Shown piece by piece: positions 1 through 56,083 of a stretch of 64,000 nucleotides of DNA. The translations under genes and the position numbers were made by a program. The DNA is from Streptomyces humicola (lineage in GTDB: Bacteria > Actinomycetota > Actinomycetes > Streptomycetales > Streptomycetaceae). Where the stretch lies: NCBI RefSeq assembly GCF_024436035.1, contig NZ_JANFNG010000005.1, positions 124,001-188,000 of the forward strand, written 5' to 3'. Positions within the stretch are counted from its first letter, which is position 1. Each line of letters starts with the position of its first letter. Below the pieces are notes generated by a model. That model had not been told where the DNA came from and did not search any database. It was given only the letters and a program-made list of their open reading frames with translations.

Positions 1-2333
1 CCTTCGACCTCTCCGAGCCAGCCCTCGCGTTCGGCCTCGGCGATGCGGGCAATGAGGTTGTCGCGGATCTCGACGATGCGGGAGCGTTGGGCGGGGTCGG
101 GCCAGTGCATGGAACATCGCAGGCAGGCGTGTTCATGGATGCAGGGGGTGGAGTAGGCCCGGCCGCAGAGGCCAGTGGAGACTTTGCGGCGTTCGAAGTG
201 GCCGAGGAACTCCTCCCACTCCTCGTCCGTGGGCGCCCGGTATTCCTCGGTGGGGCGCTGGCTGCGGCGCCGGGCGAGGAAGGCCAGGTGGGCCTGGATG
301 GCCTCGTCTGGATAGACGGCTTTGTAGCCGAGGGTGACATTGATGTCCTGGTGGCCCACGAGCACTTGGGCGATGTGCGGGGGCAGACCGTTCATGATGG
401 CGTCGGTGATGAACATCCTGCGGAAGTCGTGGGGGGTGTAGTTCAAGGGGCGGCCGTCGCCAGGGTCGACGAGGCCGGTCCCGACCAGAGCGGCCTGGAG
501 CATTTTACGGATGGTTCCGTGGTTGATGGCGCGGAACTCGGTGCGGAAGCGGCGCTGGAACAGCAGCGGGGCCGGTGGCATCCACACGCATTCGTGCCAG
601 TCGTAGGCGGGGACCAGCGGGACGGGTCCGGAAGGTTCCCGGATTCTGCTGATGATGGTGGACAGCACCTCGGCCAGTTCGGGGCTGACGACCAGCAGTC
701 GTTCCACGTCCGTCTTGGACGGAGCGATCTGTAGCAGCGGCACGATTTCACCCGTGGTCGGCAACCGGTATTGCACCAGGCTGTGGTGGCTGATCTCCAG
801 CAACTCCTCAATACGGACGCCGGTGAGACGGAGGACTTCCACTGTGGCCCAGGCCCAGAACGCGTACTCCTCTTCCTGCCGTAGGTCGCGGCGCTTGCCG
901 CTGCTCGGGTCGTCCGCCCAGACCGTGGTCACGGACGCGCCGGGGCGAAGGACGGAGCGAATCAAGGTCTGGTCGCCGGCGGTGAATGCGGCCCCGGGCT
1001 CGGCTTGCCGGGCCGCGTTGAGGAGGGCCTCGGCGGTCTTGCGTCGCTGATCGACGGTGCGGACGAGCACGGGCAGGACCGGGAGCCGCTCGCGGGTGCG
1101 GGCATCCATGCGTGACTTGTGCTGTCGTTTGTATTTGCGGGTCCCGATGTCCTGCTGGCTGACGGGGCAGGGGGCGACCCAGTGTGCCCAACGTCCGGGA
1201 TCTTCGATGGCCCACTGGGAGAGATCCAGGTAGAGGGCCCGTACTTTGATCAGGCACTCGCGAAAGCTGATCCGGGCGACGGGGACGACGGTCTTCTCGC
1301 CGTCCCTCCCGGTGACTGTTTCCGGCCGGGTCAGCAGGCGATGGCGCCAGGCGGTGGCCACCTCGGTGGGCAAGTGGAGGCTGTCGAGGCCAGGGTGGTG
1401 GAGCTCAAGGTCTTTCCAGAAGCGGCAGCCGAGGAAGTACGCAAGGTCGCGCAGGCTGTTGTAGTCCAGTCCCGGCTGGCGTTCTCGCAGGTAGTCCACG
1501 AGCAGGTCTCTGACGGGCCGGGACTCGATCTCGTAGCGGTCGATCAGTTCCTCGGGAGTTCGCTGTCCTCCGGTGCGCAACTCGCGCCAGCCCGCGGGCG
1601 CTTGAGGGCCGAGGACGTCCAGGTCGCGCAGTGTGCGGTAGAAGACGGGCAGGTCCTTCGGCCAGGACGTGCGCACTGCGGTCTCGGTCTCGGCGAGTTC
1701 CAGGACGTCGCCGAGGGTGATGTCGTCGACCAGGCCGCCCTTGGCCGCAAGGATCACGGCGGTCCGCTGCAGGATGAGCCGACGGGAAGACGCCGACAGG
1801 TCGGTCCGGCTGTCGCAGTGTGCCCGCAGTCGCGCGTATCCGTGCGGGTCGCGCACGAGGGCAAGCCCTGGAGCAAGGTCGCTCTTCAAGGAAGGCGCGG
1901 ACACCAGCCACTCGAGCGAGGGGCGGATGACATCGGCGCCGATCAAGACCTTCATCCCGTTGGACAGCTCGGACGGCAGCCATTGAGAGCATCGACCACG
2001 TTCGCTGAGCCACTCCAGGGGCGCCCGTCGCCACTGGACACCGAGCGCCTCGGCGCCGCTGGCCAGCCATCGCCGCTGCCAGGACTCGCCCGGAACGTCG
2101 TGCAGCCAGTCCAGCAGATGAGCCAGACCGCGGACCCGCTTGCCCTGGACGACAGGGTTCGCGAGGACGAACGGCGTGCCGGTCGTCCGCTCCCACACAT
2201 CCACGCGCCCGAGTTCGGTGGCGGGCCAGGCGCTGGAGGCCGAGCGCGCGGGGAACCGATCGCGCGGCAGCTTCAGTGCCGCAGCCGAACTCGCCGCCTT
2301 CAGCGTCCGGTGCGTCAGTATCGTGGCCGTCAC
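1..2333 (-). CDS. Tn554 TnpB-like tyrosine recombinase, C-terminus off the window edge
   Basis: A continuous reading frame runs from a GTG start at 2333 to the window edge (at least 776 residues), so the gene is partial at its 3' end. Catalytic residues of a tyrosine recombinase are visible: Arg near residue 507 (TGVRIEELLE), the HxxR box near residue 635 (TPHDFRRMF), the GH box (VLVGHQDINVTLGY) and the nucleophile Tyr near residue 666. It would cut and rejoin DNA in transposition of its own element. The start overlaps the stop of the upstream recombinase by GTGA, so the two are translationally coupled. A smaller recombinase followed by a large one matches Tn554 tnpA-tnpB; a small tnpC would be expected beyond the left edge. 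The family is clear; the Tn554 assignment is by size and order. Confidence 0.8.
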   Translation of the reverse strand, partial: MTATILTHRTLKAASSAAALKLPRDRFPARSASSAWPATELGRVDVWERTTGTPFVLANPVVQGKRVRGLAHLLDWLHDVPGESWQRRWLASGAEALGVQWRRAPLEWLSERGRCSQWLPSELSNGMKVLIGADVIRPSLEWLVSAPSLKSDLAPGLALVRDPHGYARLRAHCDSRTDLSASSRRLILQRTAVILAAKGGLVDDITLGDVLELAETETAVRTSWPKDLPVFYRTLRDLDVLGPQAPAGWRELRTGGQRTPEELIDRYEIESRPVRDLLVDYLRERQPGLDYNSLRDLAYFLGCRFWKDLELHHPGLDSLHLPTEVATAWRHRLLTRPETVTGRDGEKTVVPVARISFRECLIKVRALYLDLSQWAIEDPGRWAHWVAPCPVSQQDIGTRKYKRQHKSRMDARTRERLPVLPVLVRTVDQRRKTAEALLNAARQAEPGAAFTAGDQTLIRSVLRPGASVTTVWADDPSSGKRRDLRQEEEYAFWAWATVEVLRLTGVRIEELLEISHHSLVQYRLPTTGEIVPLLQIAPSKTDVERLLVVSPELAEVLSTIISRIREPSGPVPLVPAYDWHECVWMPPAPLLFQRRFRTEFRAINHGTIRKMLQAALVGTGLVDPGDGRPLNYTPHDFRRMFITDAIMNGLPPHIAQVLVGHQDINVTLGYKAVYPDEAIQAHLAFLARRRSQRPTEEYRAPTDEEWEEFLGHFERRKVSTGLCGRAYSTPCIHEHACLRCSMHWPDPAQRSRIVEIRDNLIARIAEAEREGWLGEVE

Positions 2334-3534
2334 GGCTGACCACCGAAGAGGACGCTGAGCGTCTCGGAGCGGTAGCCGACGGCCGGTGTCGGAGCGGTCC
2401 GCGCTGCCGCCTGCCGAGTCTGCTCGGCATGATGGGCCAGCACGCGACGGATCACCTCCTCCTTGCGGGGCGTGAGGTAAATCTGCGTGGTGGTCAACTG
2501 GACATGTCCAAGGACGAATTGGACATTCGTGAGCGGCAGACTGGGATCCTCCGCCATCCGGTAGGCCGCCGTGTGCCGCAACGCGTGCAACGTCGCCGAG
2601 GTCCCGGCCAGAGCGTTGGCCCGCTCAAACATCCGGTGGGCCGCGTGGTAAGTCAGTGGCCGGGACGGTGAACGCAGTGTCCACCACAGCGGAAGCCGGC
2701 GCCCGCGGGGGATCATCTCCTCCATCTCCAGCTGGTAGAGCCGCAGCCAGACGAACGCGTCCGTCGAGGCCGGCAGTTCCTGCATCTCACCGGTGCCTTT
2801 GCGGACCACCGTGATCAACTGGCGCCCCGGATCGGCCCCGCCCTGCGTGGCGGACAGCAGCTCGCTGGCGCGGGCTCCGGTGGACACGTAGAAGGCGACC
2901 ATGGCCCTGTCCCGGTGGGAGGGCAGCCGCGTGAAGATCTCGTTGAACTCCTCGTCCGGGACGCTGCGGGGCACCCGCTTGGGCACCGTGGGCCGGTAGA
3001 GACCGGCGCGCTCGTTGTGGTGCGGCTCCATCGGGTTGTGATGAACGTGGGCCCGGCGCCCGCGGCGCGATCGGTCCAGAGGGAAGGGATTGAGGATCGG
3101 TCCGGTGCCTGTATCGCGGTGGAAGTCGTAGAAGTTCCGCAGCACTGTCTCGCTGTGTGCGCGGACCGATGCCGCATACGGCTTCCCGCCCGGAGTCCAC
3201 AGGGCGGCAGTCCGATGTCGCCAGTGCGGACGCGCCGGTTGCCCCGCGACCTGCAGCCACCGGGAGAAGTCCCTCGCCTCGATGCGAGTTGCCCCGTCCC
3301 ACGGGACATCGACGGCCCACAGAAAGCGGAACCGCGCAGCAGGTCCATGCCATACGAGCGGGCCGTAGCCGGCGGACGCCCGGCCCCCTGCAAGTCGCGC
3401 AGATAGGCAGCGGCCCCCTCGACCAGCTCGCCGCCTGGATCGACGAGCCGGTACGGCTCCCACTGATCACCGGTGGCCACGAGCTCGCCGGACAGAGGCA
3501 CGGCCAGCGACGCCAGGTCTCTTGACGCTTCCAC
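2330..3534 (-). pseudogene. Tn554 TnpA-like tyrosine recombinase with a frameshift
   Basis: About 400 codons of a tyrosine recombinase split over two frames. The N-terminal part starts at GTG 3534 and runs to the motif ARSYGMDLLR. Homology then continues in the next frame as FRFLWAVDVPWDGATRIE, so one base appears missing between about 3333 and 3334 (GCG-GG where GCG-TGG would restore the frame). The catalytic half is intact: STGARASELL, HALRHTAAYRM (HxxR), VLGHVQLTTTQIYL (GH and Tyr). Either the gene is inactivated, or there is a sequencing error, or it is expressed from an internal start as a shorter protein. The stop overlaps the start of the downstream large recombinase, as in paired recombinases of Tn554-type elements. 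Confidence 0.75.
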
Positions 3535-9487: not shown

Positions 9488-11095
9488 TCAGGTGTTTCCG
9501 AGGATGAGGTCGGATGCCTTTTCGGCGATCATGACCGTGGGTGCTTGTGTGTTGGAGCTGACGATCCTGGGCATGACGGATGCGTCGACCACGCGGAGCC
9601 CGTCCAGGCCGTGGACTGTCAGGTCCGGGGAGACGACGGAGGAGTCGGCGTCCCCCATCGCGCAGGTGCCGACGTGGTGGTACGAGGTGCGTCCGTGGCC
9701 GCGGACGAAGCGGATGTGGTCGTCTTTGGACTTCAGTGCCTGTCCCCCGGCCAGGTGTTCGGCCTTGACGTGCCGTGCCATGGAGGGTTGCGCCATGATT
9801 TCGCGGCTCTGCCGGACGCCTTCCATGCTCATTTCGAGGTCGTAGTCGTCGGCGAGGTAGTTGGGGTCGATCAGCGGTGGCTGTGCGGGGTCGGCGGAGG
9901 CGATTCGGACGGTGCCGCGGCTGCGGGGGCGCACGAAGTAGGAGTTGAGGGTGCAGCCGTAACCGGGTCGTACGCCCGCGATTCCGGCCTCCACTCCGGC
10001 GGCGGGCAGGAAGTGGAACTGCAGATCCGGTGTGGCTTCTTCGCGGTTGCCGTAGGAGAAGGCGCCGCCCTCGACGACCGTCGAGGCCAGCGGTCCCTTG
10101 CGGAAGGCGGCATATTCGATGCCGGCGGCCACCGTTGCCGGGCGGGGCCGGGCGAATCGGTCCATGCTCTGGTAGGTGTTGAGCTCGTAGATGATGTCGA
10201 GGTCGCAGTGGTCGTGCAGGTTCTTGCCCACACCGGGCAGGGCATGCCGCACGTCGACGCCGGCCTCGCGCAGATCGGCCGGGTCGCCGATGCCCGACAG
10301 CTGAAGGATCTTCGGCGAACCGATGGTGCCGGCGGAGACGATGACCTCGCGCCGGGCCCGGTAGCGGTGCCTGCTCTTGCCGGTGGTGGTCTCTATTCCG
10401 ACCGCCCGCTTTCCGTCCAGGATGACGCGGGCGATCAGGTGGCCCGGCTTCGCGGTGAGGTTGGGCCGTTTCTTGGCTGGGTGGAGGTAGCCGACGGCGG
10501 CGCTGCAGCGGCGGCTGCCGCGTGTGGTGTTCTGGTAGAGGCCGACGCCGTACTGTGATTCGCCGTTGAAGTCGCCGTTGTAGGGGAGTCCGAATTCTTG
10601 GCCTGCTCGCACGAACGCTTTCGACAGCGGGTGCGGGTTGACGGGGTCGGAGACTCCCAGCGGGCCGCCGTTGCCGTGCCAGGGGGCGGAGAGGCGGTCG
10701 TTGTCCTCCGAACGCAGGAAGTACCGGAGGATGTCGTTGAAGCTCCAGCCGGTGCAGCCGTATTTCTTGTCCCACTCGTCGTAGTCCTCGTGGGCTCCGC
10801 GGGTGAAGACCTGAGCGTTGATGGATCCGCCTCCGCCGATCACCTTGCCCTGGGCGAGTGGGATGACGCGGTCATTGCAGTGCCTTTGAGGCTGGCTGCG
10901 CCATCCCCATTCGTAGGGGCCGGCGGTGAGTTTCGCGAATCCGGCCGGGACGTGGATGAGCGGGTTGCGGTCGCTTCGTCCGGCTTCGAGCAGCAGCACC
11001 CGGACGGCGGGATCGGCCGAGAGCCGGTTGGCCAGGACGCAACCGGCGGTGCCACCACCTGCGATGACGTAGTCGTACTCGTCGTCAGTGAACAT
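9488..11095 (-). CDS. GMC-family FAD alcohol oxidoreductase (set I)
   Basis: 535 residues from ATG 11095, chosen because GGAG lies nine bases upstream; an in-frame ATG at 11110 lacks such a site. The FAD-binding GGGTAG is at residues 13-18, followed by [12 protein letters not shown] signatures follow: [18 protein letters not shown] and the second signature with [16 protein letters not shown]. The active-site His pair lies near residues 473-474 ([11 protein letters not shown]), with the C-terminal [18 protein letters not shown]. It resembles choline-dehydrogenase-type enzymes that oxidise primary alcohols to aldehydes. It lies 44 bp downstream of an aldehyde dehydrogenase gene, so alcohol to acid in two steps is the natural reading. 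A close paralogue lies at 62337-63950. Confidence 0.92.
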
Positions 11096-11139
11096 GAACG
11101 GGTGCTCCATCGGGATCGGATCGGTGTCGGGTGGGATCG

Positions 11140-12666
11140 TTATCGGGCGAAGAAGGGGGGGCGGGACCCGGTGCGCAGCTGGACGGACTTCAGTTCGGTG
11201 AACTCGTCGAATCCCGCCTGGCCCAGCTCGCGGCCGTAGCCACTGGCGCCCATGCCGCCTGCGGGCAGTTGCGGCGATCCGTCGATGGTCGTGTTGACCC
11301 ACACGCGGCCGCTGCGCAGTCGGCGTGCCGCGCGCATGGCCTTGTCGACGTCCTTGGTCCACACCGTGTTCGCCAATCCGTACTCGACCGCGTTGGCCAG
11401 GCTCATGGCCTGCTCGAAGTCGTTGAAGCGGGTGACGGTCAGGACCGGGCCGAAGATCTCCTCGCGGAACAGACGGCTGTCGGACCCGACACCGTCGACG
11501 ATGGTCGGGGGCAGGTAGTCGCCGCCGGGGTGCGCGGCATCGGGCAGAACCGCTCCCCCTGCGACGATCTTCGCACCGTCCAGGACGTCGTCGGCCAGGT
11601 AGCCCAGCACCTTGGCAACGTGGGACGGGCTGATCAGCGCCCCCACTTCGGTGGCCTCGTCCAGCGGGTCACCGACCCGGATACGCCCGGCGCGCTCGAC
11701 CAGCCGGGCCACGAAGGCGTCGGCGATGCTCTCCTCGACCAGCAGGCGCGCACCGGAGACACAGCATTCGCCCTGGTTGAAGTAGATCCCGAACAGCACA
11801 CCCTCGACGGCGTCGTCGAGGTCGGCATCCGCGAAGACGACGCTGGCTGCCTTGCCGCCGAGTTCGAGGGAGAGCCGGGTGGCGTGGGCCGCGGAGGCGG
11901 AGATGACGGCACGTCCTGTGGTGGTGCTGCCGGTGAAGGAGAGCAGGTCGATCGCGCCGCTTTCGGCCAGTGGCTGGCCGACTTGCTTGCCGTAGCCGGT
12001 GACGACGTTGACCACCCCGGCCGGGATACCGGCCTGCTCGGCCAGGCGGACGAGTTCAAGTGTGGTGCCCGAGGTCAGCTCGGACGGTTTGATCACCGAC
12101 GTGCAGCCCGCGCCGAGGGCGAAGGGGAGCTTCTGCGCCACCTGGAGGAGCGGGAAGTTCCACGGTGTGATCATCCCGACGACCCCGGCGGGTTCACGTA
12201 CCGTCCACGCGGTGAAGTCCTCGCCGAGGTTGGTGTAGACGTCTCCGTGAGCGGCCATCGCCAGCCCGGCCGCGTACTCGATGATGTCGATGCTGGCCGC
12301 GACGTCCCCGCGGGCCAGCCGCACCGGCTTGCCCACCTCTTCGGCCTCCAGACGTGCGAAGCGCTCGGCCTCCTCCCGCAGCAGACCGGCCAGGCGCAGC
12401 AGTGCCCGGCCGCGCTCCATACCGGTCAGCCGCGGCCACGGCCCGGTGTCAAACGCCCGGCGGGCAGCACCGACCGCGGCGGCGACATCGTCCGGCGCGC
12501 CTGCGGCGAACCTGGCGACCACGCGACCGTTGCTGCCGGGGGCGATGCGCTCGATGCCCTCTCCCGGGCCGGGCGCAGGCGTCCACTGCCCGTCCAGGTA
12601 CTGGCCGTACGCGCGGACCTTCGCATCCTCGGAATTGGTTGGGATGTGGTCGTGAGCTGTGCTCAT
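11140..12666 (-). CDS. NAD(P)-dependent aldehyde dehydrogenase (set I)
   Basis: 508 residues from ATG 12666, preceded by AGGACTTG. Family motifs are complete: [18 protein letters not shown], the cofactor loop [10 protein letters not shown], the general-base Glu in LSLELGGKA, and the catalytic Cys at residue 302 in [12 protein letters not shown]. It oxidises an aldehyde to a carboxylate in the cytoplasm, presumably the aldehyde made by the adjacent GMC enzyme. It is the first gene of the leftward unit, and a copy of the 23-bp palindrome lies 28-50 bp upstream. It is divergent from the ROK regulator at 12765. A paralogue is at 60486-62006, also next to a GMC gene. Confidence 0.92.
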
Positions 12667-12693
12667 GGGTATCAAGTCCTGATGCCGGGTCTA

Positions 12694-14879: not shown

Positions 14880-15704
14880 TCATACCACGTGGGCGAGGTA
14901 CCTTCGGCATGCCTGGGCGAGGACCTCGTGGCCGGGCAGCTCCCACAGGTAGGCGTTGAAGATCTCCACTTCGGTAAGTCCGCGGTAGCCGCTGCGTTCC
15001 ACCGCCTGCCGCAGGGTGCGCAGGTCGATGCAGCCGGTGCCCATCATGCCGCGGCCGGTCAGCACGCCGGCGGGCAGCGGGGTTATCCAGTCGCAGACCT
15101 GGAATCCGGCGGTTCGCTGTCCAAGCAGTGCGAGTTCGTCGAAGAGGCCGGGGTCCCACCAGACGTGGTAGGCGTCAACAAGCACCCCGACCTGGTCGGC
15201 CGGGAACTGCTCGGCCAGCAGCCGGGCCTGGCGCAGCGAGGAGATCACGCTGCGGTCGGAGCAGTACATGGGGTGCATCGGCTCGATGGCGAGCACGACG
15301 CCGTGTTCGCCCGCGAACGGGGCGAGCTCGGCGATGGCGTCGGCGACCATGCGACGCGCCCCTGCCAGGTCCCGGCTGCCCGGCGGCAGTCCCCCGCAGA
15401 CCAGGACGAGGGTTCGGGCGCCGAGCCGGGCTGCTTCTTCGACGGCTCGGCGGTTGTCGTCGATACGGTCCCGGCGGGCGGCAGCGTCCGCGGCGGTGAA
15501 GAATCCGCCCCGGCACAGGCTGGTCACCACCACACCCACCGCGCGCACGAGGCGGGCGATGCGGTCGATTCCGGTCTCCTGGACCGGCTCGCGCCACAGC
15601 CCGACGCCACCGAGTCCGCTGCGGGCGGCGGCGTCGATGAGTTCGGGAAGCGGCCAGTGTCTGGCAGTTTCGGAGTTGAAGGAAAAACGGCTCAAGTCGC
15701 TCAA
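14880..15704 (-). CDS. Sugar phosphate isomerase/epimerase-like TIM barrel (set I)
   Basis: About 274 residues of the xylose-isomerase-like TIM-barrel (AP endonuclease 2) family. The metal-ligand Glu and Asp positions of the family are recognisable in VLAIEPMHPMY, VGVLVDAYHVWWDP and LTEVEIFN. Homology begins right after the DUF993 stop, and the only start there is TTG 15704, overlapping that stop as TTGA, so coupled translation is likely. The longer in-frame extension to 15878 lies inside the DUF993 gene and is not real. The same DUF993-isomerase pairing recurs at 35843-37860. These enzymes isomerise, epimerise or dehydrate sugar derivatives; the exact reaction is unknown. Confidence 0.82.
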   Translation of the reverse strand: MSDLSRFSFNSETARHWPLPELIDAAARSGLGGVGLWREPVQETGIDRIARLVRAVGVVVTSLCRGGFFTAADAAARRDRIDDNRRAVEEAARLGARTLVLVCGGLPPGSRDLAGARRMVADAIAELAPFAGEHGVVLAIEPMHPMYCSDRSVISSLRQARLLAEQFPADQVGVLVDAYHVWWDPGLFDELALLGQRTAGFQVCDWITPLPAGVLTGRGMMGTGCIDLRTLRQAVERSGYRGLTEVEIFNAYLWELPGHEVLAQACRRYLAHVV

Positions 15705-16900
15705 GACTGCACTCCGTTGATCTGGAGGAATATGTGCATGCGGGCGGCGGCCAGGTCGGGGTCGCGCAGTACTCCAGCGCGGTCGGCCAGCCGAAACAGC
15801 TCGCCCAGGTGGATCAGCGAGCGTGCGCTGTGCCCTCCGCCGACCATGGTGAAGTGGTCCTGGTGACCGTTCAGCCAAGCGAGGAAGACAACGCCGGTCT
15901 TGTAGTGGAAGGTGGGCGCGGCGAACAAGTGCCGCCCTAGGGGGACGGTCGGCTCCATCGCGGCCTGGAAGGCGTCGTGGTCTCCGGCGTCGAGCCCCTG
16001 CAGTGCCTGAGAGGCCGCCGGGGCGATGGCGGCGAAGACACCGAGCAGGGCATCGCTATGGCCTTGGCCGTCGCCGCGGATGAGATCGCAGTAGTGGAAG
16101 TCGTCGCCGGTGTACAGGCGGACACCGTGCGGGAGCCGACTACGCAGCGCGCGCTCACGGTCGGCCTCCAGGAGCGAGAGTTTGATGCCGTCGACACGGG
16201 TCGCATGTGTGCGAAGGAGTGCGAGTACGGTCTCGGTCGCGGAATCGAGGTCGTCGGAGCCCCAGTAGCCCTTGAGTTGGGGGTCGAACATCTCGCCGAG
16301 CCAGTGCAGCACCACGGGCCCTGAGGCCTGGCTGAGGACCGTGTCGTAGACGGCGAGGTAGTCCTCGGGCGTGCGCGCTGCCGCGGCGAGTGCGCGGCTG
16401 GCCATGATCACCGGTGTTGCGCCGGCGTCCTCGGCAACGGACAGCTGCTCGAGGTAGGCGACCGTCACCTGGTCAAGCGTCGGGGCCGGCGCGGTCAGCT
16501 GGTCGGTGGCGACACCGGCGACGATCCTGCCGCCGACCGAGCGGGCCTCGGCCGCGGAGCGCCGGATCAACTCCGCAGCGGTGGGCCAGTCCAGGCCCAT
16601 TCCACGCTGGGCGGTGTCCATGGCCTCAGCGACGCCGAAGCCCCATCGCCACAGCTCGTGCCGGAAGGCGAGGGTGCGCTCCCAATCCAGGACAGCAGGC
16701 GACCCAGGGGTGTTCTCCGCGTACGGATCGGCGACCACATGCGCCGCCGCGTAGGCAATGCGGCTGTGGAAGCCGGACGCTGGCGGGGCGAACTCCCCCG
16801 GGACGCCGAGGGTGTACGGCTCGGTCCCACCGCCGGGAACCGGAAGGGGGAGGGTATGGGGCACAAGCAGCTCCTGGAGATCAGAATCAATGGGGATCAC
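15701..16900 (-). CDS. DUF993 protein, dihydrodipicolinate-synthase-like (set I)
   Basis: 399 residues from GTG 16900, overlapping the enoyl-CoA hydratase stop (GTGA). It belongs to the DUF993 family annotated as dihydrodipicolinate synthase-like. Conserved blocks shared with the set II paralogue include AMDTAQRGMGLDW, GRIVAGVATDQL, VILMASRALA-like, PVVLHWLGEMFDPQLKGYW, GIKLSLLEADRE and the GDDFHY segment. The Lys in GIKLSLL is a candidate Schiff-base residue by analogy with class I aldolases of this superfamily. The function is not established; an aldolase or lyase acting on a keto-sugar or polyol acid is an inference. The codons from 16389 upward are duplicated near-identically at 42851-43362. 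Confidence 0.8.
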   Translation of the reverse strand: MIPIDSDLQELLVPHTLPLPVPGGGTEPYTLGVPGEFAPPASGFHSRIAYAAAHVVADPYAENTPGSPAVLDWERTLAFRHELWRWGFGVAEAMDTAQRGMGLDWPTAAELIRRSAAEARSVGGRIVAGVATDQLTAPAPTLDQVTVAYLEQLSVAEDAGATPVIMASRALAAAARTPEDYLAVYDTVLSQASGPVVLHWLGEMFDPQLKGYWGSDDLDSATETVLALLRTHATRVDGIKLSLLEADRERALRSRLPHGVRLYTGDDFHYCDLIRGDGQGHSDALLGVFAAIAPAASQALQGLDAGDHDAFQAAMEPTVPLGRHLFAAPTFHYKTGVVFLAWLNGHQDHFTMVGGGHSARSLIHLGELFRLADRAGVLRDPDLAAARMHIFLQINGVQS

Positions 16901-17679
16901 TCGGACGTGGTGGTGACGGCGAAGGCGGGGGTGCGCTTCTCACGGAAGGCGCGGGTACCTTCCACCGCGTCGGGACTGCCGAGCGTCTCGTCGGACAGCT
17001 CGGTCAGCGCGTCTCGGACGGCGGCCATCCCGTCGGTACGCAGTCGGGCAGTGGTGAAGCGCTTGGTGCGGCGGATCGCGTCCCGGCTGCCCTCGGCGAT
17101 GGTGGCTGCCAGGGCGTGCGCGGCATCGCCGACCAGGTCGTCGTCGACGACCTGATGCACCAACCCACACCGCAGCGCCGTGTGGGAATCGAGTTCCTGA
17201 GCGGTCAGGGCCAGCAGACCGGCCGGCTTGTGCGCCAGAGTGTAGGGAGCGGCGGCCGCGAACACGGTCGGCCAGACCCCGATCCGGGCCTCCGGTAGCC
17301 GGAAGGCCGCCTTCGTGCCCGCGATGGCGAGGTCACTGACGAGCACGATCTCCGTACCGCCGCCGACGGCCCGGCCGCGAACCGCACTGATCACCGGCAC
17401 CTCGCAGTTCACAATGGCCTCCATCGCCGGCAGCACGAAGCCGAGGAAGTACTCCCGAGCCTCCTGCGGGGTGGCCAGCCGGAAGAACTCGCCGATGTCA
17501 TTGCCAGCACAAAACGCCCGCGGCGAACCGTGCAGCACAACCGCCCGAACCTGTCGGTCGGCACCCGCCTCCTGCAACAGAGCGGCCAAGGATCTCCACC
17601 CGGCGGCGTCCATCGCATGCAGCTTCTCCGGCCGGCCGAACGTGATACGGGCGACCGGCCCCTGTCTGCGCAGGTCCAT
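16389..17679. repeat. 1,291-bp near-identical duplication, copy 1
   Basis: Matches 42851-44141 at a constant offset of 26,462 bases, in the same orientation. By eye I count four differences (near 16420, 16905, 17268 and 17271). It covers the complete enoyl-CoA hydratase gene up to its ATG and the 5' 171 codons of DUF993. This copy is in an intact operon and is likely the source. Confidence 0.93.
16897..17679 (-). CDS. Enoyl-CoA hydratase/isomerase (set I)
   Basis: 260 residues, a typical crotonase monomer length. The two oxyanion-hole segments are present: HGSPRAFCAGNDIGEFF and VRGRAVGGGTEIVLVSDLA. The catalytic-Glu region follows as FRLPEARIGVWPT, which is more like isomerase/hydratase subfamilies with a Glu in the second position. 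It hydrates or isomerises an enoyl-CoA thioester in the cytoplasm. The start has AGGAGAAGAA upstream. It sits third in the operon SDR, CoA-transferase, hydratase, DUF993, isomerase. A copy differing at about three synonymous or conservative positions lies at 43359-44141. Confidence 0.9.
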   Translation of the reverse strand: MDLRRQGPVARITFGRPEKLHAMDAAGWRSLAALLQEAGADRQVRAVVLHGSPRAFCAGNDIGEFFRLATPQEAREYFLGFVLPAMEAIVNCEVPVISAVRGRAVGGGTEIVLVSDLAIAGTKAAFRLPEARIGVWPTVFAAAAPYTLAHKPAGLLALTAQELDSHTALRCGLVHQVVDDDLVGDAAHALAATIAEGSRDAIRRTKRFTTARLRTDGMAAVRDALTELSDETLGSPDAVEGTRAFREKRTPAFAVTTTSE

Positions 17680-17697: not shown

Positions 17698-19272
17698 TCA
17701 GCGGGCGCCGGCGGTGACCGCGGTGAACAGGGGCGGGTCCATCAGCCGGGGGGCGCGGACGATCGGGGTGAAGCCCATGTGCGGAAGCACGTCGCGTTCC
17801 ACCGAGACGCCGGGTGCGATCTCGGTGAGTTCGACACCTGCAGTGGTGAGGCGGAAGACGGCGCGTTCGGTGACGTAGAGGACGTCCTGGCCGCGGGCGA
17901 GTGCCTGGGGTCCGGAGAAGGTCACCTCGTCGACGGCTTGTACGAACTTGCCCACGCTGCCTTCGCGTTCGATGCGCAGTGCGCCGTCGGCTACCTGCAG
18001 GCGGGTGCCCTTGGCGGTGAACTGGCCGCAGAAGACCACTCGTCGAGCCGACTGCGAGATGTCGATGAATCCCCCGGGGCCGATGATGCCGCCGCCGATG
18101 CGGCTGACGTTCACCGACCCGGTGGCGTCCACCTCGGCCATGCCCAGGTACGTCGCGTCCAGCAGGCCGCCGCCGAACAGGTCGAACTGGGTGGTCGAGG
18201 GCAGTGTGATCTCCGGCCCGGCGCAGACTCCGAACATGTCCCCGGACAGCGGGACTCCGCCGGTGTGTCCTTGCTCGATGCAGATCGTGACCTCGCCCAG
18301 CCGGCCCTGCTCGGCCAGGACGTCGGCGACCTCGCTGGAGATGCCGAAACCCAGGTTCATCACATCTCCGCGGCGCACCTGGGCCGCGGCGCGGCGGGCG
18401 ATCAGTCGTCGCACGGGCGACGCGGGAGGAGCGGGCTCGAAGGGCGGCGCAGGGGCGTCGCCGCACAGCGCCGGGTCGTGTGCGCCGAGGTACGTCTGCT
18501 GCTGTCCGGGCACGACCGTCACTGCGTCGAGCAGGAAGCGCGGCAGGTGCACGTCCCTGGGGTTGAGCGGGGTGTCGAGCTTCCGCTGGACCTGGGCGAG
18601 GACGATTCCGCCGGATGCCTTGGCGGCCTGGGCGACGGCGAACGCGTCGAGCTGAGCCGCCTCACCAGCCAAGGTGATGTTGCCGTTCGGGTCGATCGCC
18701 GTGCCCCGCACAATGCCCACATCCACCCGCAGCGGCCGGTAGCGCAGGAACTCCTGGCCGTCGAACTCGACGAGTTCGACCAGAGTGTCCTTGGCGCGGG
18801 AATTCGCCCGCCCGCCGGTCTGCCGGGGGTCGACGAAGGTACCGAGACCAGTGGCGGTGATCAACCCCGGGCGCCGGGCCCCGATTTCGCGCAGCAGCAG
18901 GCTGATCACGCCTCCGGGCAGGACATAGGCCTCGATCGCCTCGTCTGCCGCCAGCCGGGCCATCTGCGGGGACCAGGTCCAGTGCCCGCCGATGACCCGG
19001 CGCACCATCCCGGCATGGGCGAAGGCACAGGTGCCGCGCCGGTCCCGGTCGCCTACCCCGAGAGCATGGACCAGCGTCAGATCGTGCGGGGTGGCCTCGG
19101 CGAGGAAACGCTCCTCCAGCGCGGCGAAGACCGCGTCCGGCTCGAGGACGCCGCCGCCGGTGCCGGTGATGGCGATCGTCGCGCCGTCGGGTACGAGCCG
19201 GGCGAGCTCATCCGGTTCGCAGATACGAGGGGCCACGGTGGTCGTCTCCAGGGTTTGTGACGGTTCGCTCAC
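17698..19272 (-). CDS. Acyl-CoA:acetate/3-ketoacid-type CoA-transferase (set I)
   Basis: About 524 residues with fused alpha and beta halves, as in YdiF or propionate CoA-transferase. The N-terminal half has the CoA-binding ITGTGGGVLEPDAVF. The C-terminal half has the catalytic Glu near residue 333 in CIEQGHTGGVPL and the GGIIGPGGFIDI block. It moves CoA from a donor thioester to a carboxylate, activating the acid made upstream. The start is GTG 19272, which overlaps the SDR stop as GTGA; GTG 19275 is one codon earlier. A paralogue at 48713-50341 is also directly downstream of an SDR paralogue, so the SDR-CoA-transferase pair is a conserved module. Confidence 0.9.
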   Translation of the reverse strand: MSEPSQTLETTTVAPRICEPDELARLVPDGATIAITGTGGGVLEPDAVFAALEERFLAEATPHDLTLVHALGVGDRDRRGTCAFAHAGMVRRVIGGHWTWSPQMARLAADEAIEAYVLPGGVISLLLREIGARRPGLITATGLGTFVDPRQTGGRANSRAKDTLVELVEFDGQEFLRYRPLRVDVGIVRGTAIDPNGNITLAGEAAQLDAFAVAQAAKASGGIVLAQVQRKLDTPLNPRDVHLPRFLLDAVTVVPGQQQTYLGAHDPALCGDAPAPPFEPAPPASPVRRLIARRAAAQVRRGDVMNLGFGISSEVADVLAEQGRLGEVTICIEQGHTGGVPLSGDMFGVCAGPEITLPSTTQFDLFGGGLLDATYLGMAEVDATGSVNVSRIGGGIIGPGGFIDISQSARRVVFCGQFTAKGTRLQVADGALRIEREGSVGKFVQAVDEVTFSGPQALARGQDVLYVTERAVFRLTTAGVELTEIAPGVSVERDVLPHMGFTPIVRAPRLMDPPLFTAVTAGAR

Positions 19273-20030
19273 CACACGCTCATTCCGCCGTCGACGGTCA
19301 GCACCGAGCCGGTCGCGAATGACGACTCGTCGGAGGCGAGGAACACCACTGCGGCGGCGATCTCCTCAGGTCGGCCGAGCCGCCCCAGCGGCTGTCGCGC
19401 GGCCAGGTCGGCCCGGTAGGCCTGCTCGTCGGGCAGATGCCGGGAGATCTTCGCGAAGTACGGGGTATCCGTCGTGCCGGGCGCCACGCAGTTGACGCGT
19501 ATCCCCTCGGATGCGTGGTCCACAGCCATCGCCTTGGACAAGCCCACGACCGCGGCCTTGGTCGCGCAGTACGCGGCACGCTCGGCCATGCCGATCTGCC
19601 CGGCGACCGAGGCCATATTGACCACACTGCCGGCACCGGCCTTGCGCATCAGCGGGATCGCGGTGCGGCAGCCGAGGAAGACGCTGCTGACGTTGGTGGA
19701 AACGATCGCCTGCCAGTCTTCCCACGAGGTGTCGGTCACGGTCGCCCGGATCCCGTATCCAGCGTTGTTGACCAGCACATCAAGGCGCCCCCAGCGCTCC
19801 ATGACCCGACCGCTCACCTCCTGCCACGTGTCCTGAGAGCCGACATCCCCGGCGACCGCGAACGCCTCGCCGCCGGACACGCGCAGCTGGCCGGCACACT
19901 GCCCGGCCGCTTCCGCCGCCCGGTCGACGACGGCGACGCGCGCCCCTTCCCGGACGAACGCTTCCACGACGGCGCGCCCGATCCCTGAAGCCCCGCCGGT
20001 CACCACGGCAGTCTTCCCGCCGAGTCTCAT
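19269..20030 (-). CDS. Short-chain dehydrogenase/reductase (set I)
   Basis: 253 residues of a classical SDR. The Rossmann motif TGGASGIG is near residue 12, NNAG follows in VLVNNAGYGI, the catalytic Ser lies in NMASVAGQIG and the Tyr/Lys pair in AAYCATKAAVVG. The C-terminal FATGSVLTVDGGMSVW is of the usual type. It would oxidise or reduce a secondary alcohol; in this operon a 3-hydroxyacyl-CoA or the corresponding polyol-acid is a reasonable substrate (inference). It is the first gene of the leftward operon, divergent from the MHS transporter, and very similar to the SDR at 50356-51126. Confidence 0.92.
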   Translation of the reverse strand: MRLGGKTAVVTGGASGIGRAVVEAFVREGARVAVVDRAAEAAGQCAGQLRVSGGEAFAVAGDVGSQDTWQEVSGRVMERWGRLDVLVNNAGYGIRATVTDTSWEDWQAIVSTNVSSVFLGCRTAIPLMRKAGAGSVVNMASVAGQIGMAERAAYCATKAAVVGLSKAMAVDHASEGIRVNCVAPGTTDTPYFAKISRHLPDEQAYRADLAARQPLGRLGRPEEIAAAVVFLASDESSFATGSVLTVDGGMSVW

Positions 20031-24721: not shown

Positions 24722-26014
24722 ATGTCCACCACAACCGACCAGCAAGCTCTCCCCTCTCTGCCGCAGTGGCAGAGCGTCCCAGAGGACCTGCCTGTGGCGA
24801 TCCGCCGGATCAAGGCGGCGCTGCGCGCCCGGATCGAGGCATCCGGCCGCAGTGTCGAAGAGGTCTTCGCCGTGGTGGAGAAGCAGATCGCGGCCCGCAT
24901 CGCCGAGATCAACGCGGACAACAAGCGCGGCGAGGAGGTCTGGCCGGTCATCGATTACGCGGACATCGAGGCCGGCACGGTGGCCGCCGAGCAGCTCGAC
25001 AAGCTCAAGCGGCGCGGCTGCCTGGTCGTGCGCGGCCACTTCGAGCGCGAGCAGGCTCTCGGGTGGGACGCGGACATCGTCGACTACGTCGAGCGGAACA
25101 AGTTCTTCGAAAGCTATACCGGTCCCGGTGATGACTTCTTCGGCAGTGTCGGCTCCAAGCCGGAGATCTACCCCATCTACTGGTCCCATGCCCAAATGGA
25201 GGCCCGACAAAGCGACCGGATGGCGCGGGTCCAGTCGTTCCTCAACTCGCTGTGGAAGCACCAGTCCGAGGGGGTTCAGTGGTTCGACCCGGAGCGCGAT
25301 GCTATGTACCCGGACCGCATTCGACGCCGCCCGCCCGGCACCAACTCCGGTGGCCTGGGCACGCACTGCGACCCCGGCACGCTCGATTTGTGGATGACCC
25401 GAGAGAACCAGCAAGCCTTCCGCCACCTCTTCGACGGAAGCATCGAGCACTACGACCCGTGGGACGCCGCCTACCGGACCACCGGCCCGCAGTACCCCGG
25501 CTCCACCATGTGCTCGGCCTTCCGCACCTTCCAAGGCTGGACCGCCCTGTCCGACATGGACCACGACCAGGGCGTCCTGCACACGGTGCCCATCCCTGAG
25601 GCCATGGCCTACCTGATGCTCCGCCCGCTGCTGCCCGACGTCCCCGAAGACGACATGTGCGGCGTCACCACCAACCAGGTCTTCCCGGCCAGCACGAAGT
25701 GGCACCCGCTGCTCCTGGAAGCCCTCACCGGCATCCCCGACGTCAAGGCCGGCGACTCGGTCTGGTGGCACTGCGACATGATCCACAGCGTCGCACCGGT
25801 CACCGCCCAGAAGGGCTGGGGCAACGTCATGTACATCCCAGCCGCTCCCTGGTGCCGCCGCAACGAGCAGTACGCGGCCAACGTCCGCGAAGCCTTCGTC
25901 ACCGGCTCCAGCCCCAGCGACTTCCCCGAGGAGCACTACGAACGCGCCTGGGCAGACCGCTTCGGCCTCGACGAACTCAACGACACCGGCCGCCGCGGTA
26001 TGGGCCTGGATTGA
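24722..26014 (+). CDS. DUF1479 protein, Fe(II)/2-oxoglutarate oxygenase-like (YbiU family)
   Basis: 430 residues, usual for DUF1479 (E. coli YbiU). A candidate iron facial triad is visible: His215 and Asp217 in GTHCDPGTLDLW and His355 in WHCDMIHSVAP. DUF1479 has the double-stranded beta-helix fold of non-haem iron oxygenases; members have no settled substrate that I know of. An N-terminal helical region (residues 20-70) precedes it. Preceded by operator D and divergent from ROK2, so it is probably one of the main targets of the ROK/palindrome system. It may carry out an initial hydroxylation or dealkylation of the imported compound (inference). Confidence 0.82.
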   Translation: MSTTTDQQALPSLPQWQSVPEDLPVAIRRIKAALRARIEASGRSVEEVFAVVEKQIAARIAEINADNKRGEEVWPVIDYADIEAGTVAAEQLDKLKRRGCLVVRGHFEREQALGWDADIVDYVERNKFFESYTGPGDDFFGSVGSKPEIYPIYWSHAQMEARQSDRMARVQSFLNSLWKHQSEGVQWFDPERDAMYPDRIRRRPPGTNSGGLGTHCDPGTLDLWMTRENQQAFRHLFDGSIEHYDPWDAAYRTTGPQYPGSTMCSAFRTFQGWTALSDMDHDQGVLHTVPIPEAMAYLMLRPLLPDVPEDDMCGVTTNQVFPASTKWHPLLLEALTGIPDVKAGDSVWWHCDMIHSVAPVTAQKGWGNVMYIPAAPWCRRNEQYAANVREAFVTGSSPSDFPEEHYERAWADRFGLDELNDTGRRGMGLD

Positions 26015-33843: not shown

Positions 33844-34308
33844 TCAGGAAGCCGCGGGACCGTCCAGCGTCTCGACAGCGTCCACGAGAGGCGTCAGCCG
33901 GGGATCTTGACTGGCACGGTCAAGGGCCTCGCGCAGTGCCGCATCATGGGTGGGACGCGCCGCGGCGAGCAGGGCGAGCCCGGCCTCGGTGACGTCCGTG
34001 TAGATACCCCGGCGGTCGGTCACGCACAGGTAGCGGGTCAGCAGCCCGCGATCCTCCAGACGCGTGACGAGCCGAGTGGTCGCACTCTGACTGAGCACCA
34101 CCGCGTCGGCGACCTGGTTCATGCGCAGGTGACCGCCCTCACCGCCGTGCTGATGGCTGAGGACATCGAGCAGGGAGTACTCCCGCACACTGAGGTCATG
34201 CCCACTCTGCAGGGCGCGCTCAATGTGCGCCTCGATCCGGCCATGCAAGAGGGAGAGGGCATACCAGCCGTGGACAAGGCCGGTCGCGGCGACGTGCGTG
34301 GCGGTCAT
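33844..34308 (-). CDS. MarR-family transcriptional regulator
   Basis: 154 residues from ATG 34308 with GGAGGG upstream. The winged helix is visible as SVREYSLLDVLSH, MNQVADAVVLSQSATTRLVTRLEDRGLLTR and the beta-hairpin DRRGIYTDVTEAG. MarR proteins are dimeric repressors released by small aromatic or oxidant ligands. The longer open frame to 35079 fuses it artificially with an IS701 remnant. No adjacent target gene is apparent; the MFS exporter 2.5 kb away with its TTGCAAG repeats is a speculative candidate. Confidence 0.85.
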   Translation of the reverse strand: MTATHVAATGLVHGWYALSLLHGRIEAHIERALQSGHDLSVREYSLLDVLSHQHGGEGGHLRMNQVADAVVLSQSATTRLVTRLEDRGLLTRYLCVTDRRGIYTDVTEAGLALLAAARPTHDAALREALDRASQDPRLTPLVDAVETLDGPAAS

Positions 34309-34669
34309 CGTTTCCCTCCTCCGTGACAGCTGAGCACTCCCGTGCAACCCAACACCGTACACACGACAACATACCGCGCATGCAATTAGTAGGCTACGTA
34401 ATGAGGTGAGCTGAGCGGTGGCTCGCGGAGAAGTGCTGCCTGCCCGGAGGAATCCACCGCGGCCGTACTGCTGGCCGCCCGGCGCCTTGCGGTCGCGTGG
34501 CTCCACGGACGTTGCGGCTGACCCTATGCGCTTCGTTATGTCTGTCCTCCCTGCAGCCGCTGTGCAGGCGCAGCACCGACGCCCGACCATGGCCGGCATC
34601 TGACCGACCCTGGCGATGAGGCGGACGAAAGCCATCATGGGCGGGATGGAATCTGGGCTCACCCTGGAG
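34309..34669. other. Intergenic, no recognisable gene
   Basis: 361 bases between the MarR start and the IS701 remnant. The part next to MarR (34330-34410) is AT-richer with TACGTAATGAGG-like sequence and may hold its promoter. I recognise nothing in the rest. Confidence 0.4.
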
Positions 34670-35100
34670 GAGATCGTCTTGCCGTAGCGGCCCAGCCACC
34701 GGCGGCCCACATGCGCGGTCGCTTTACCGTCCTTGCGGTCACCGGAGTCATCGATGACCAGCACACCGCCCTCGTGCGGTGCGGTCGCCGGGTCTGCCAT
34801 CAACAGCTCCAGACGTCGGGCGTTGATGCGTTCGTCGTCCCAACATGACTCGGACAAGAAGAACTGCAGCCGCTGCACCGCCCGGTGTTGTGCTCCGACG
34901 ACCGGTTCGGCGCCTGCCAGACATGTCAGTGTCTTGTTTCGATCCCGCAGCGCGACAACCTCGTCAGGCACTCCCGAAAGAGCCTGCGCTGGGCCAGCGT
35001 GCCGAACAAGTCGTCGAAGCAAGTGGCGTAGTGTTCCAGCGGAACCCGAGCTGGCGGACACCGGTAGACGACCGGCCATGACTCACCGCTACAAACAGTG
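34670..35100 (-). pseudogene. IS701-family transposase, N-terminal remnant
   Basis: Minus-strand frames read LFGTLAQRRLFRECLT and, after a frameshift near 34965, LAGAEPVVGAQHRAVQRLQF, VLVIDDSGDRKDGKATAHVG and RWLGRYGKT. These are consecutive N-terminal segments of IS701-type DDE transposases, the IDDSGDRKDG motif carrying the first catalytic Asp. The remainder of the gene is missing. Confidence 0.7.
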
Positions 35101-35134: not shown

Positions 35135-35842
35135 TTAATAGCTGGCCCTCCCTCCGGAGAGATCGAAGACGGAGCCGGTGGTGTAGGACGACTCGCGCGA
35201 GATGATCCACCGCACCAGCGCCGCTGCCTCCTGCGGGGTGCCGTAGCGACGCAGCGGGATGCGGGCGAGTTCCTCTTCGGTGGGGGGAAGTCCTGCGGTG
35301 AGGGGCGTGGCGATCTTGCCCGGCGCGATGGCGTTGACGGTGACGCCGGAGTCGGCGTACTCCTTCGCGAGCGCCTTGACGAGCCCCATCACGCCCGCCT
35401 TGCTCGCCGAGTAGGCGGTCATCCCTGCGACGCCCTCCTTGCCGGCCGTCGAGGCGAAATGGACGAGCCGACCGTAGCCCCGGGAGGCCATGGGCGGCAG
35501 TGCCGCGCGCGAGACGATGAAGGCGCCGGTGAGATTGACGCGCAGGATGCGCTCGAAGTCGGCGACGGAGTGCTCCGCGGCCGGTTGTACCGGCCCGAGA
35601 AGCCCGGCACAGTTGACGACCGCGTCGATGCCGCTGGTGAGCGCTTCGGCGCGTTCGAGGGCGACGCGAACCGAGTCCTCGTCGCCGACGTCGATGGCCA
35701 GGCATCCGTCCTTGTCAGTGTCCCAGGTCGCGGACGGCAGGTCCGCGGCGACCACGTGCAGGCCGTCGGCGAGGAGCCTCGCCGCGGTCGACTGGCCGAT
35801 CCCCGAGGCAGCACCGATGACGAGACAACGCAATGCATGCAT
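35135..35842 (-). CDS. Short-chain dehydrogenase (last gene of the set II coupled operon)
   Basis: 235 residues. The cofactor motif is VIGAASGIGQ, NCAG occurs in place of NNAG (AVVNCAGLLG), the Ser is in VHFASTAGKE and the Tyr/Lys pair in MTAYSASKAGVMG. The C-terminus is YTTGSVFDLSGGRASY. The ATG at 35842 abuts the stop of the DUF993 gene (TAA 35843-35845), so the two are adjacent without spacer. It would oxidise a hydroxyl on an intermediate of the DUF993/isomerase pathway. It is not closely similar to the two SDRs of the CoA-transferase modules. Confidence 0.9.
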   Translation of the reverse strand: MHALRCLVIGAASGIGQSTAARLLADGLHVVAADLPSATWDTDKDGCLAIDVGDEDSVRVALERAEALTSGIDAVVNCAGLLGPVQPAAEHSVADFERILRVNLTGAFIVSRAALPPMASRGYGRLVHFASTAGKEGVAGMTAYSASKAGVMGLVKALAKEYADSGVTVNAIAPGKIATPLTAGLPPTEEELARIPLRRYGTPQEAAALVRWIISRESSYTTGSVFDLSGGRASY

Positions 35843-37000: not shown

Positions 37001-37860
37001 GCGCCGGTCTCCTTCTTCTGCGCGAGTGTGAGTCGGTGTGTGACGGCGGCGTCGAATCCGGATCGGGTGCGCGTCACTATCTCCTTGAGGGGCAGCGCCC
37101 ACACCGCGTCGTTGAACACCTCGACCTCCACGGGGCCGAGGTAGCCGGCGTCCACGACGTCCGCGGTGAGGCGGGCGAGGTCGAGTTCGCCGTCGCCGGG
37201 CAGGAGACGGCCGTTCATGTTCTCCGGCAACGGAAGCGGGAGTGCGAAGTCGCTGACCTGGAACCCGGCGATTCGGGGCCCTGCCGCCTGCAGAGATGTA
37301 CGAAGCTCCGAATCCCAGGAGACGGCGTAGGCGTCGACGAGCAGGCCGACGGCATCGTGTGGGAGCGGTTCGATGACGCGCAGCGCCTGTGCGACTGTGG
37401 TCACCGCGCTGCGGCTGTTGACGAACAAGGGGTGCAGCGGTTCAAGCGCGAGGCGGACTCCTGCCGATTGCGCCTCTGGGGCCAGTTTCTCCAGCGCGTC
37501 GCGAACACGGTGCTCGGCTGCGCGGAGATCACGGTCCCATGCGGGCAAGGCTCCAGCCATGAACGTGAGCTGAAGCGCGCCGAGTTCGTGGGCGAGTTCG
37601 AGGGCGCGGCGGGTGTCGTCGAGTGCGGTTCGCAGGTCGGCGCCCTGCTTGTCGGCGACGAAGCCGACGCGGCACAGTGAGCTGACCGACAATCCGCTCT
37701 CCGCGAGGAGCGCACGAGTCGGCCCGACACCGAGTTCCTGTATGGGGTCGACCCACAGTCCGATCCAGCCGATGCCCGACTCGACAAGCGCCGCGGCGGT
37801 CTCCGGCAGTGCGTACGGTCGCGTCGTTGCCTGGTTGAGGCTCAGCTCGGGCAGGCTCAC
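36997..37860 (-). CDS. Sugar phosphate isomerase/epimerase-like TIM barrel (set II)
   Basis: 287 residues from GTG 37860, overlapping the Gfo/Idh/MocA stop (GTGA). Xylose-isomerase-like TIM barrel, paralogous to 14880-15704: SSLCRVGFVAD parallels SLCRGGFF, and RLALEPLHPLFV, VGLLVDAYAVSWD and GPVEVEVFND carry the metal-ligand positions. The long extension of the frame upstream lies within the oxidoreductase gene and is spurious. Coupled on both sides in the seven-gene operon. Confidence 0.87.
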   Translation of the reverse strand: MSLPELSLNQATTRPYALPETAAALVESGIGWIGLWVDPIQELGVGPTRALLAESGLSVSSLCRVGFVADKQGADLRTALDDTRRALELAHELGALQLTFMAGALPAWDRDLRAAEHRVRDALEKLAPEAQSAGVRLALEPLHPLFVNSRSAVTTVAQALRVIEPLPHDAVGLLVDAYAVSWDSELRTSLQAAGPRIAGFQVSDFALPLPLPENMNGRLLPGDGELDLARLTADVVDAGYLGPVEVEVFNDAVWALPLKEIVTRTRSGFDAAVTHRLTLAQKKETGA

Positions 37861-42764: not shown

Positions 42765-42791
42765 ACTGGCCACCCTCTTCGTTGAATCCGG

Positions 42792-42847: not shown

Positions 42848-42850
42848 TGC

Positions 42851-46377: not shown

Positions 46378-46413
46378 GTTGGATGTCTCCAAAGGGGTGC
46401 GGGTGGGTAAGGG

Positions 46414-50341: not shown

Positions 50342-50355
50342 CATGCCGCCGCTCC

Positions 50356-51126: not shown

Positions 51127-51142
51127 CACCACACTCCTTTCG

Positions 51143-53523: not shown

Positions 53524-53524
53524 C

Positions 53525-56082: not shown

Positions 56083-56083
56083 G

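Follow-up and report, generated by a model that had tools for sequence, protein, structure and literature searches.

DUF993, a family with a dihydrodipicolinate synthase-like fold and an invariant lysine, encoded beside sugar dehydrogenases: a candidate Schiff-base lyase in Streptomyces humicola

The 64,000-nucleotide stretch of Streptomyces humicola DNA analysed here (contig NZ_JANFNG010000005.1, positions 124,001 to 188,000; hereafter the window) carries two sets of genes, I and II, in each of which a gene for a DUF993 protein (PF06187) overlaps one for a xylose-isomerase-like triosephosphate isomerase (TIM) barrel protein, hereafter the TIM partner. DUF993 possesses the fold of dihydrodipicolinate synthase (DHDPS); barrel strand 6 carries an invariant lysine, and the superfamily motifs are present in changed versions. 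Its genes occur in a recurrent operon architecture and are associated with glycerate kinase. We tentatively propose that it is a divergent Schiff-base lyase, which cleaves the keto-sugar or keto-sugar acid made by a partner dehydrogenase and leaves one three-carbon fragment at the level of glycerate.

An AlphaFold (AF2) model of DUF993 was built from 38 sequences (pLDDT 93.3; pTM 0.91). Its top structural match is 4DNH (VIA Z 58.7), the Sinorhizobium meliloti protein SMc04132, to which no function is assigned. The next are DHDPS chains with a VIA Z of about 31, an rmsd of 2.3 Å over about 290 residues (model residues 47-378) and a Foldseek E value of about 1e-10. The barrel strands, as assigned from the model, comprise residues 49-52, 89-92, 126-130, 162-165, 196-201, 236-242, 261-264, and 283-286. 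Lys240 lies on the sixth of these, the strand that bears the Schiff-base lysine in DHDPS, and is paired by alignment with the lysine of the DapA motif NKDAKGD. The initial annotation of this DNA, made from its letters and open reading frames (ORFs), had proposed inspecting the pocket around this lysine in a predicted structure; the prediction is a DHDPS-type barrel, and the lysine, judged by strand position and profile alignment, stands on strand 6. Alignment using hhalign to the four DHDPS proteins encoded by the same genome runs collinearly for 228 columns, and places the DHDPS lysine opposite Lys240, the tyrosine opposite His199, and the motif GTTGE opposite Asp95, Thr96, Ala97, Gln98, and Arg99.

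The lysine had been noted earlier as conserved in the motifs GIKLSLL (set I) and GIKVSLL (set II). Both motifs are present, and the conservation extends to all 38 rows of the alignment and to every one of the 151 tblastn matches that cover the site, from a census of 153 loci in which the other two matches are truncated. His199, Trp200, and Asp266-Asp267 are likewise invariant (151/151), as are Thr96, Gln98, and Arg99 (153/153); residue 97 is Ala in 141 matches and Ser in 12, and Asp95 is kept in 38/38 alignment rows. The superfamily's GTTGE, the motif that binds the alpha-keto carboxylate in pyruvate-type members, is thus replaced by DTAQR or DTSQR, and the position of its conserved strand-5 tyrosine is occupied by histidine in 151/151. 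These two changes make it likely that DUF993 constitutes a new subfamily of the DHDPS/N-acetylneuraminate lyase (NAL) superfamily, and suggest that the ketone of its substrate is not adjacent to a carboxylate. In the available text of PMC13398020 the superfamily is characterized by a TIM barrel in which a lysine forms the Schiff base and a tyrosine is conserved, with glutamate taking the place of the latter in KdaD; the tree given there has six subfamilies, of which DUF993 is not one.

DUF993 was found in 44 of 61 genomes in a search of relatives, the window's own genome included, and in 29 of 396 genomes drawn from the phylum. Its surroundings were compared at 106 loci, composed of six from plasmids, 80 from species genomes (the best 80 of 595 confirmed loci), and 20 from further genomes. 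This set leans to Streptomyces, with Mesorhizobium recurrent; the species-genome loci come from Actinobacteria, Alphaproteobacteria, Firmicutes, Chloroflexi, a Trueperaceae metagenome-assembled genome (MAG), and others. By tblastn, with locus L068 included, the TIM partner lies within 6 kb at 91/106 loci, and the same distance holds the canonical Gfo/Idh/MocA dehydrogenase (Gfo) at 90/106 and any Gfo at 100/106. The usual layout is a divergent LacI gene followed by Gfo, DUF993, and TIM. No match to the TIM partner was seen within 6 kb at the remaining 15 loci, and a search at E 1e-30 of eight draft genomes with such loci (three Mesorhizobium, Psychrobacillus, and four MAGs) failed to find it in any, while the same search recovered it in 6/6 control genomes. 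The DUF993-TIM pair is therefore not an obligatory catalytic unit: the steadier local partner of DUF993 is the dehydrogenase, and the TIM barrel is usual, not required. An occurrence of DUF993 apart from any sugar-acting partner, named at the outset as a finding that would refute the reading then offered, is seen locally at no more than two of the 106 loci (L121 and L130, both MAG contigs), where none was found nearby; L130 adjoins an ordinary DHDPS-family gene. At L070 the neighbours are a KDPG-type aldolase, DUF4432, a short-chain dehydrogenase/reductase (SDR), and an alcohol dehydrogenase (ADH). Genes for a 2-hydroxyacid dehydrogenase, an NAD_binding_2/11 reductase, KdgD, and mandelate racemase also occur near DUF993 operons. 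Genome G022 holds, beside a Gfo-like gene, a second DUF993 that is a broken fragment with a two-piece match (L159; G022:C5, 8875-9307).

The association with glycerate kinase emerged from the neighbours of 50 canonical loci, from which 224 ORFs were picked and 187 scanned against Pfam in batches of 123 and 64; the remainder were omitted by hand, some as likely spurious. Gly_kinase appears in 5/123 and 1/64, beside additional TIM (5/123 and 4/64), additional Gfo (five), and an ABC permease domain (five); once regulators and periplasmic-binding-protein domains are set aside, these are the most frequent families. PF02595 was then searched in 66 DUF993 genomes, namely all 44 positives of the relatives search and 22 of 24 further phylum positives (G282 and G349, partial or weak, were left out), and gave 97 matches in 65 of them. 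Fourteen of the 66 genomes, across ten genus codes, have a glycerate kinase no more than 6 kb from DUF993 (ten of them no more than 2 kb), against a chance expectation of about 0.14. Related species do not count as independent here, but ten genera are still far above chance. On a Paracoccus plasmid one neighbouring protein, encoded after the operon, is a DUF4147+MOFRL glycerate kinase of an unrelated family. This is a lone case, and the MOFRL type was rejected as a general partner, since it is found in 1/66 genomes, and there not in the neighbourhood of DUF993.

From these data we infer an imine-based retro-aldol cleavage. The partner dehydrogenase, usually Gfo/Idh/MocA and in the window's clade an SDR or zinc-dependent ADH (Zn-ADH), would oxidise a sugar or sugar acid so that a ketone arises within its chain or ring. 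Lys240 would form an imine with that ketone, and the C-C bond between the alpha and beta carbons would then be broken. In most genomes the TIM partner, a putative metal-type isomerase, may rearrange the keto-sugar or a cleavage product. One of the fragments would be tartronate semialdehyde or hydroxypyruvate, which would be reduced and then phosphorylated by the neighbouring glycerate kinase; it is chiefly the recurrence of this kinase that points to a C3 product at the glycerate level. On paper a 5-keto-aldonate suits this scheme best, because imine cleavage would split it into tartronate semialdehyde and dihydroxyacetone and it carries its ketone at a distance from the carboxylate. In the CoA-linked clusters described below (the window's clade, Mesorhizobium, and Psychrobacillus) the same step would probably be coupled to the activation and beta-oxidation of an acid. 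The initial annotation had already suggested a retro-aldol reaction of a keto-sugar; this is still only plausible, and is now better founded on the aldolase fold, the strand-6 lysine, the Gfo genes, and the glycerate kinases.

Several observations weigh against this proposal. By sequence alone the evidence of homology to DHDPS is weak (hhalign probability 13%; pairwise E 0.0022), no DHDPS chain occurs among the matches of the DUF993 profile search, and the case for membership of the superfamily rests on the fold. Glycerate kinase is absent within 6 kb in 52 of the 66 DUF993 genomes, including that of the window, and such kinases also favour other sugar-acid clusters. The aldolase scheme leaves the CoA genes around the window's DUF993 copies unaccounted for. 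Finally, retro-aldol chemistry is not forced by the fold, since the superfamily, as set out in the available part of PMC13398020, also includes the dehydratases KdgD and KdaD.

Because of these dehydratases, and because systems composed of Gfo and TIM-barrel enzymes perform beta-elimination, elimination is the main rival to cleavage. Here the imine would acidify the alpha proton, water or a glycosidic group would be lost from the beta carbon, and the TIM partner would then hydrate or isomerise the enone. Such losses have precedents in the removal of water by KdgD and KdaD and in the TIM-barrel eliminases, which free the aglycone of 3-keto-glycosides. The glutamate of KdaD, a member of one of the two dehydratase groups, is found at the tyrosine position where DUF993 has histidine (PMC13398020, in part); Agrobacterium operons of Gfo and sugar-isomerase-type genes carry out oxidation, elimination, and hydration of glycosides, as described in the available text of PMC10628242; and KdgD-like and mandelate-racemase-like genes lie close to some DUF993 operons. 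We nonetheless consider an eliminase unlikely, given that elimination alone provides no glycerate-level fragment such as the recurrent kinase implies, and that among the families listed for either neighbour batch no glycoside hydrolase family has two or more members (the batch of 64, for which singletons are listed, has one member each of GH3, GH4, and GH9). A barrel that is catalytically silent or regulatory and scaffolds the Gfo and TIM enzymes is a highly improbable reading of DUF993: the family has no known activity and the usual superfamily motifs are altered, but neither the lysine nor a group of polar residues varies from phylum to phylum, and the protein is retained in all eight searched genomes in which the TIM partner went undetected.

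The CoA genes raise a further alternative for the window's clade, namely that DUF993 and TIM perform a retro-aldol on a hydroxyacyl- or keto-acyl-CoA, or acid, supplied by the CoA-transferase, acyl-CoA dehydrogenase, and hydratase, in a pathway for a polyhydroxylated, perhaps cyclic, acid. In a DUF993 tree (107 rows, quick method, L068 excluded) set I of the window groups with G022 and Streptomyces sp. HNM0575 with a support of 100, while DUF993_II forms a long branch of unsure placement. HNM0575 possesses a contiguous cluster of GMC oxidoreductase, aldehyde dehydrogenase (ALDH), LacI, aldo-keto reductase (AKR), SDR, CoA-transferase, acyl-CoA dehydrogenase, sugar ABC transporter, AKR, Zn-ADH, DUF993, and TIM, which is mostly present in G022 and largely common to the window. 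At ten Mesorhizobium loci DUF993, without TIM, is divergent from a set of LacI, Gfo, CoA-transferase, hydratase, and ALDH genes (the Gfo label is absent in one, the hydratase label in another), and a Psychrobacillus locus comprises CaiB, Gfo, DUF993, acyl-CoA dehydrogenase, a putative TRAP transporter (three ORFs, identified by eye), ADH, and hydratase. A CoA-transferase of class I or CaiB type lies within 9 kb at 15/106 loci, in at least five separate branches. Ten of these 15 belong to the one Mesorhizobium clade, 91/106 loci have no CoA-transferase reference match within that distance, and the transporter of the window's cluster is of a sugar type; this alternative appears improbable. The link between DUF993 and CoA-transferase is at most suggestive, CoA-transferases being common genes.

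A wider view may also be entertained, with less confidence than the lyase proposal: that DUF993 is a separate branch of Schiff-base aldolases for sugar acids in which ketone and carboxylate are not adjacent, which would explain the loss of GTTGE; that with Gfo and TIM it forms a mobile pathway in at least four phyla; and that in some lineages, including the window's clade, it serves a CoA-thioester route for a novel sugar-like acid.

The features of the window are collected in Table 1. The overlap of the DUF993 and TIM genes in both sets and their opposite internal order, as first described, hold good: DUF993 precedes TIM in set I and follows it in set II, all on the minus strand. Each overlap is 4 nt (TTGA at 15701-15704 in set I; ATGA at 36997-37000 in set II), which suggests translational coupling. 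The start of TIM_I is probably the TTG at 15704, judging by the G022 orthologue, which begins MSDLSRLSFNS; that of DUF993_II is probably the ATG at 37000, versus 37102 in the listed ORF. DUF993_I and DUF993_II share 51-52% identity. The neighbours by which set I had been assigned a CoA context and set II a Gfo context are as stated; the contrast is not a clean one, since set II closes a minus-strand run (51132-35135) of SDR, CoA-transferase, acyl-CoA dehydrogenase, two electron-transfer flavoprotein-like ORFs, Zn-ADH, and hydratase genes. The Zn-ADH at 44251-45315 has a 76% identical orthologue immediately upstream of DUF993-TIM in HNM0575. An ORF of LacI type also lies upstream of set II (recognised by eye and through BLAST matches to LacI-like genes). 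The idea of a LacI operator shared within the window, GCAAACGTTTGC, was rejected, since its three matches do not differ significantly from the 1.44 expected.

Table 1. Features of the S. humicola window in order of position
Feature	Position	Strand	Remarks
TIM_I, xylose-isomerase-like TIM barrel (PF01261/AP_endonuc_2)	14880-15704	minus	Sister of 7VPF/3QC0/3JU2; PF01261 140 bits (profile scan, listed ORF 14880-15878)
DUF993_I (PF06187), DHDPS-fold	15701-16900	minus	602 bits vs gathering cut-off 24
DUF993_I, Lys240 codon	16181-16183	minus	
DUF993_I, His199 codon	16304-16306	minus	
DUF993_I, DTAQR			From Asp95
ECH_I, enoyl-CoA hydratase/isomerase family	16897-17679	minus	Profile scan
CoA-transferase (PF01144)	17698-19275	minus	FadX-like, below cut-off; profile scan
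SDR oxidoreductase of set I	19269-20030	minus	NF004791 over cut-off
SDR_II	35135-35842	minus	Profile scan
DUF993_II	35843-37000	minus	Lys codon 36317-36319; 522 bits vs cut-off 24 (listed ORF 35843-37102)
TIM_II, divergent	36997-37860	minus	PF01261 105 bits
Gfo/Idh/MocA oxidoreductase of set II	37857-38981	minus	IolG-like, below cut-off
Major facilitator superfamily (MFS) transporter of set II	38978-40348	minus	By-eye call from translation
Zn-dependent alcohol dehydrogenase	40408-41625	minus	
FAD-dependent oxidoreductase (FAD_binding_2)	41409-42812	minus	Profile scan
Truncated third DUF993	42661-43326	minus	197 bits; profile 3-156 of 382; lacks Lys, His199, GDD stretch
Second enoyl-CoA hydratase copy	43359-44141	minus	Inside 99.69% identical repeat
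Zn-ADH	44251-45315	minus	IolM-like, below cut-off
Two putative electron-transfer flavoprotein subunit ORFs	45406-47211	minus	By-eye call
Acyl-CoA dehydrogenase	47510-48667	minus	
Second CoA-transferase and second SDR	48713-51132	minus	
Sugar-type ABC transporter: permease (BPD_transp_2), ATPase, binding protein (Peripla_BP_4)	52489-57226	minus	RbsB top NCBIfam match, below cut-off
Gfo/Idh/MocA protein	59075-60379	minus	36-41% identical to DUF993-adjacent Gfo genes of other loci

Beyond what had been recorded initially, the run leading to set II came to light together with a truncated third DUF993 and second hydratase (42661-44141) and a fourth DUF993 outside the window. The last of these (contig 7, G000:C7; L139) has the canonical LacI / Gfo-DUF993-TIM order. 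The third belongs to a 1291-bp repeat, in which 16389-17679 and 42851-44141 are 99.69% identical with four differences; it contains the entire hydratase gene, one boundary falling exactly at the start codon, and the first part of DUF993, which is why the third copy lacks the lysine. It looks like a recent gene conversion or duplication. The pair of CoA-transferase and SDR genes is also doubled (17698-20030 and 48713-51132; two blocks that match at about 66-69% DNA identity), and a pair of GMC oxidoreductase and ALDH genes is found at both ends of the window (9488-12675 and 60483-63950) in opposite orientation, with about 75% and 70% DNA identity. A Gig2-like protein (PF07350, 462 bits) is encoded between the sugar clusters at 24722-26014. 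A phage-type integrase ORF (2330-3463) and, adjoining set II, an ORF which combines transposase (DDE_5) and MarR-type matches (33844-35079) hint at mobility.

The IolI-type sugar isomerases of the AP_endonuc_2 family have the metal ligands Glu-Asp-His-Glu. Among 93 TIM partners Glu199, Asp235, and Glu305 (TIM_I numbering) are invariant, while residue 260, the expected histidine ligand, is Gln in 76, both window copies included, and His in 17. TIM_II has Ala at the site of TIM_I His238, where 92/93 relatives carry His, and is changed at several further conserved sites; with the loss of this near-universal histidine, set II may be specialised or decaying. Hydroxypyruvate isomerase proper was considered for the TIM partners and rejected, the TIGR03234 scores being 35 and 42 bits against an equivalog cut-off of 353.

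Since the family is widespread, assigning a reaction to DUF993 would annotate many genomes at once, and should it prove to be a Schiff-base aldolase for sugars with a mid-chain ketone, it would extend a much-studied superfamily and might find use in biocatalysis. The literature search returned no paper that names DUF993 or PF06187 or assigns the family a function, and nothing on the Gfo-DUF993-TIM triad, on TIM together with Paenibacillus R4, or linking DHDPS with a retro-aldol on a 3-keto compound or with tartronate semialdehyde. PMC9608346 and PMC9202165 use the term "dihydrodipicolinate synthase family", and in their available text neither identifies a DUF993 protein. The only functional data found are changes in the expression of SMc04132 and SMc04133 in an S. 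meliloti PhaR study (PMC12542648, in part).

The family has relatives of known structure. SMc04132 (4DNH) is itself a DUF993 protein (E 4e-139); 3JU2 (S. meliloti SMc04130) and 7VPF correspond to the TIM partner and 3OQB to the canonical Gfo, and a pSymB locus of S. meliloti has the order Gfo, DUF993, mandelate racemase, TIM. The depositors' names for 4DNH, 3JU2, and 3OQB carry no function; every protein of the Gfo-DUF993-TIM triad is represented by an orphan deposit, and we found no assigned reaction for any of the three. Much as proposed for the operons discussed here, in the OGE, levoglucosan, and puerarin operons of A. tumefaciens a dehydrogenase makes a 3-keto sugar for a TIM-barrel enzyme; these glycoside-cleaving operons differ in that two isomerase-type genes are described, and neither an aldolase nor dihydrodipicolinate is mentioned in the available text (PMC10628242). 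The members of the DHDPS/NAL superfamily (DapA, NanA, KdgA, KdgD, KdaD, and the hydratase-aldolases) share with DUF993 the TIM-barrel fold, a collinear alignment, and the strand-6 lysine; Thr96 aligns with the first Thr of GTTGE, and the GDD stretch is aligned at strand 7. DUF993 is longer, at about 400 residues against about 300, and has an extra N-terminal segment; the window's DUF993 proteins do not match Pfam DHDPS (PF00701), hmmscan at E 0.001 giving DUF993 only. Glucarate and galactarate catabolism ends in tartronate semialdehyde and glycerate kinase. That route resembles the one proposed for DUF993 in placing a keto-acid lyase before glycerate kinase, and departs from it in using another aldolase family, whose substrates are 3-deoxy-2-keto acids.

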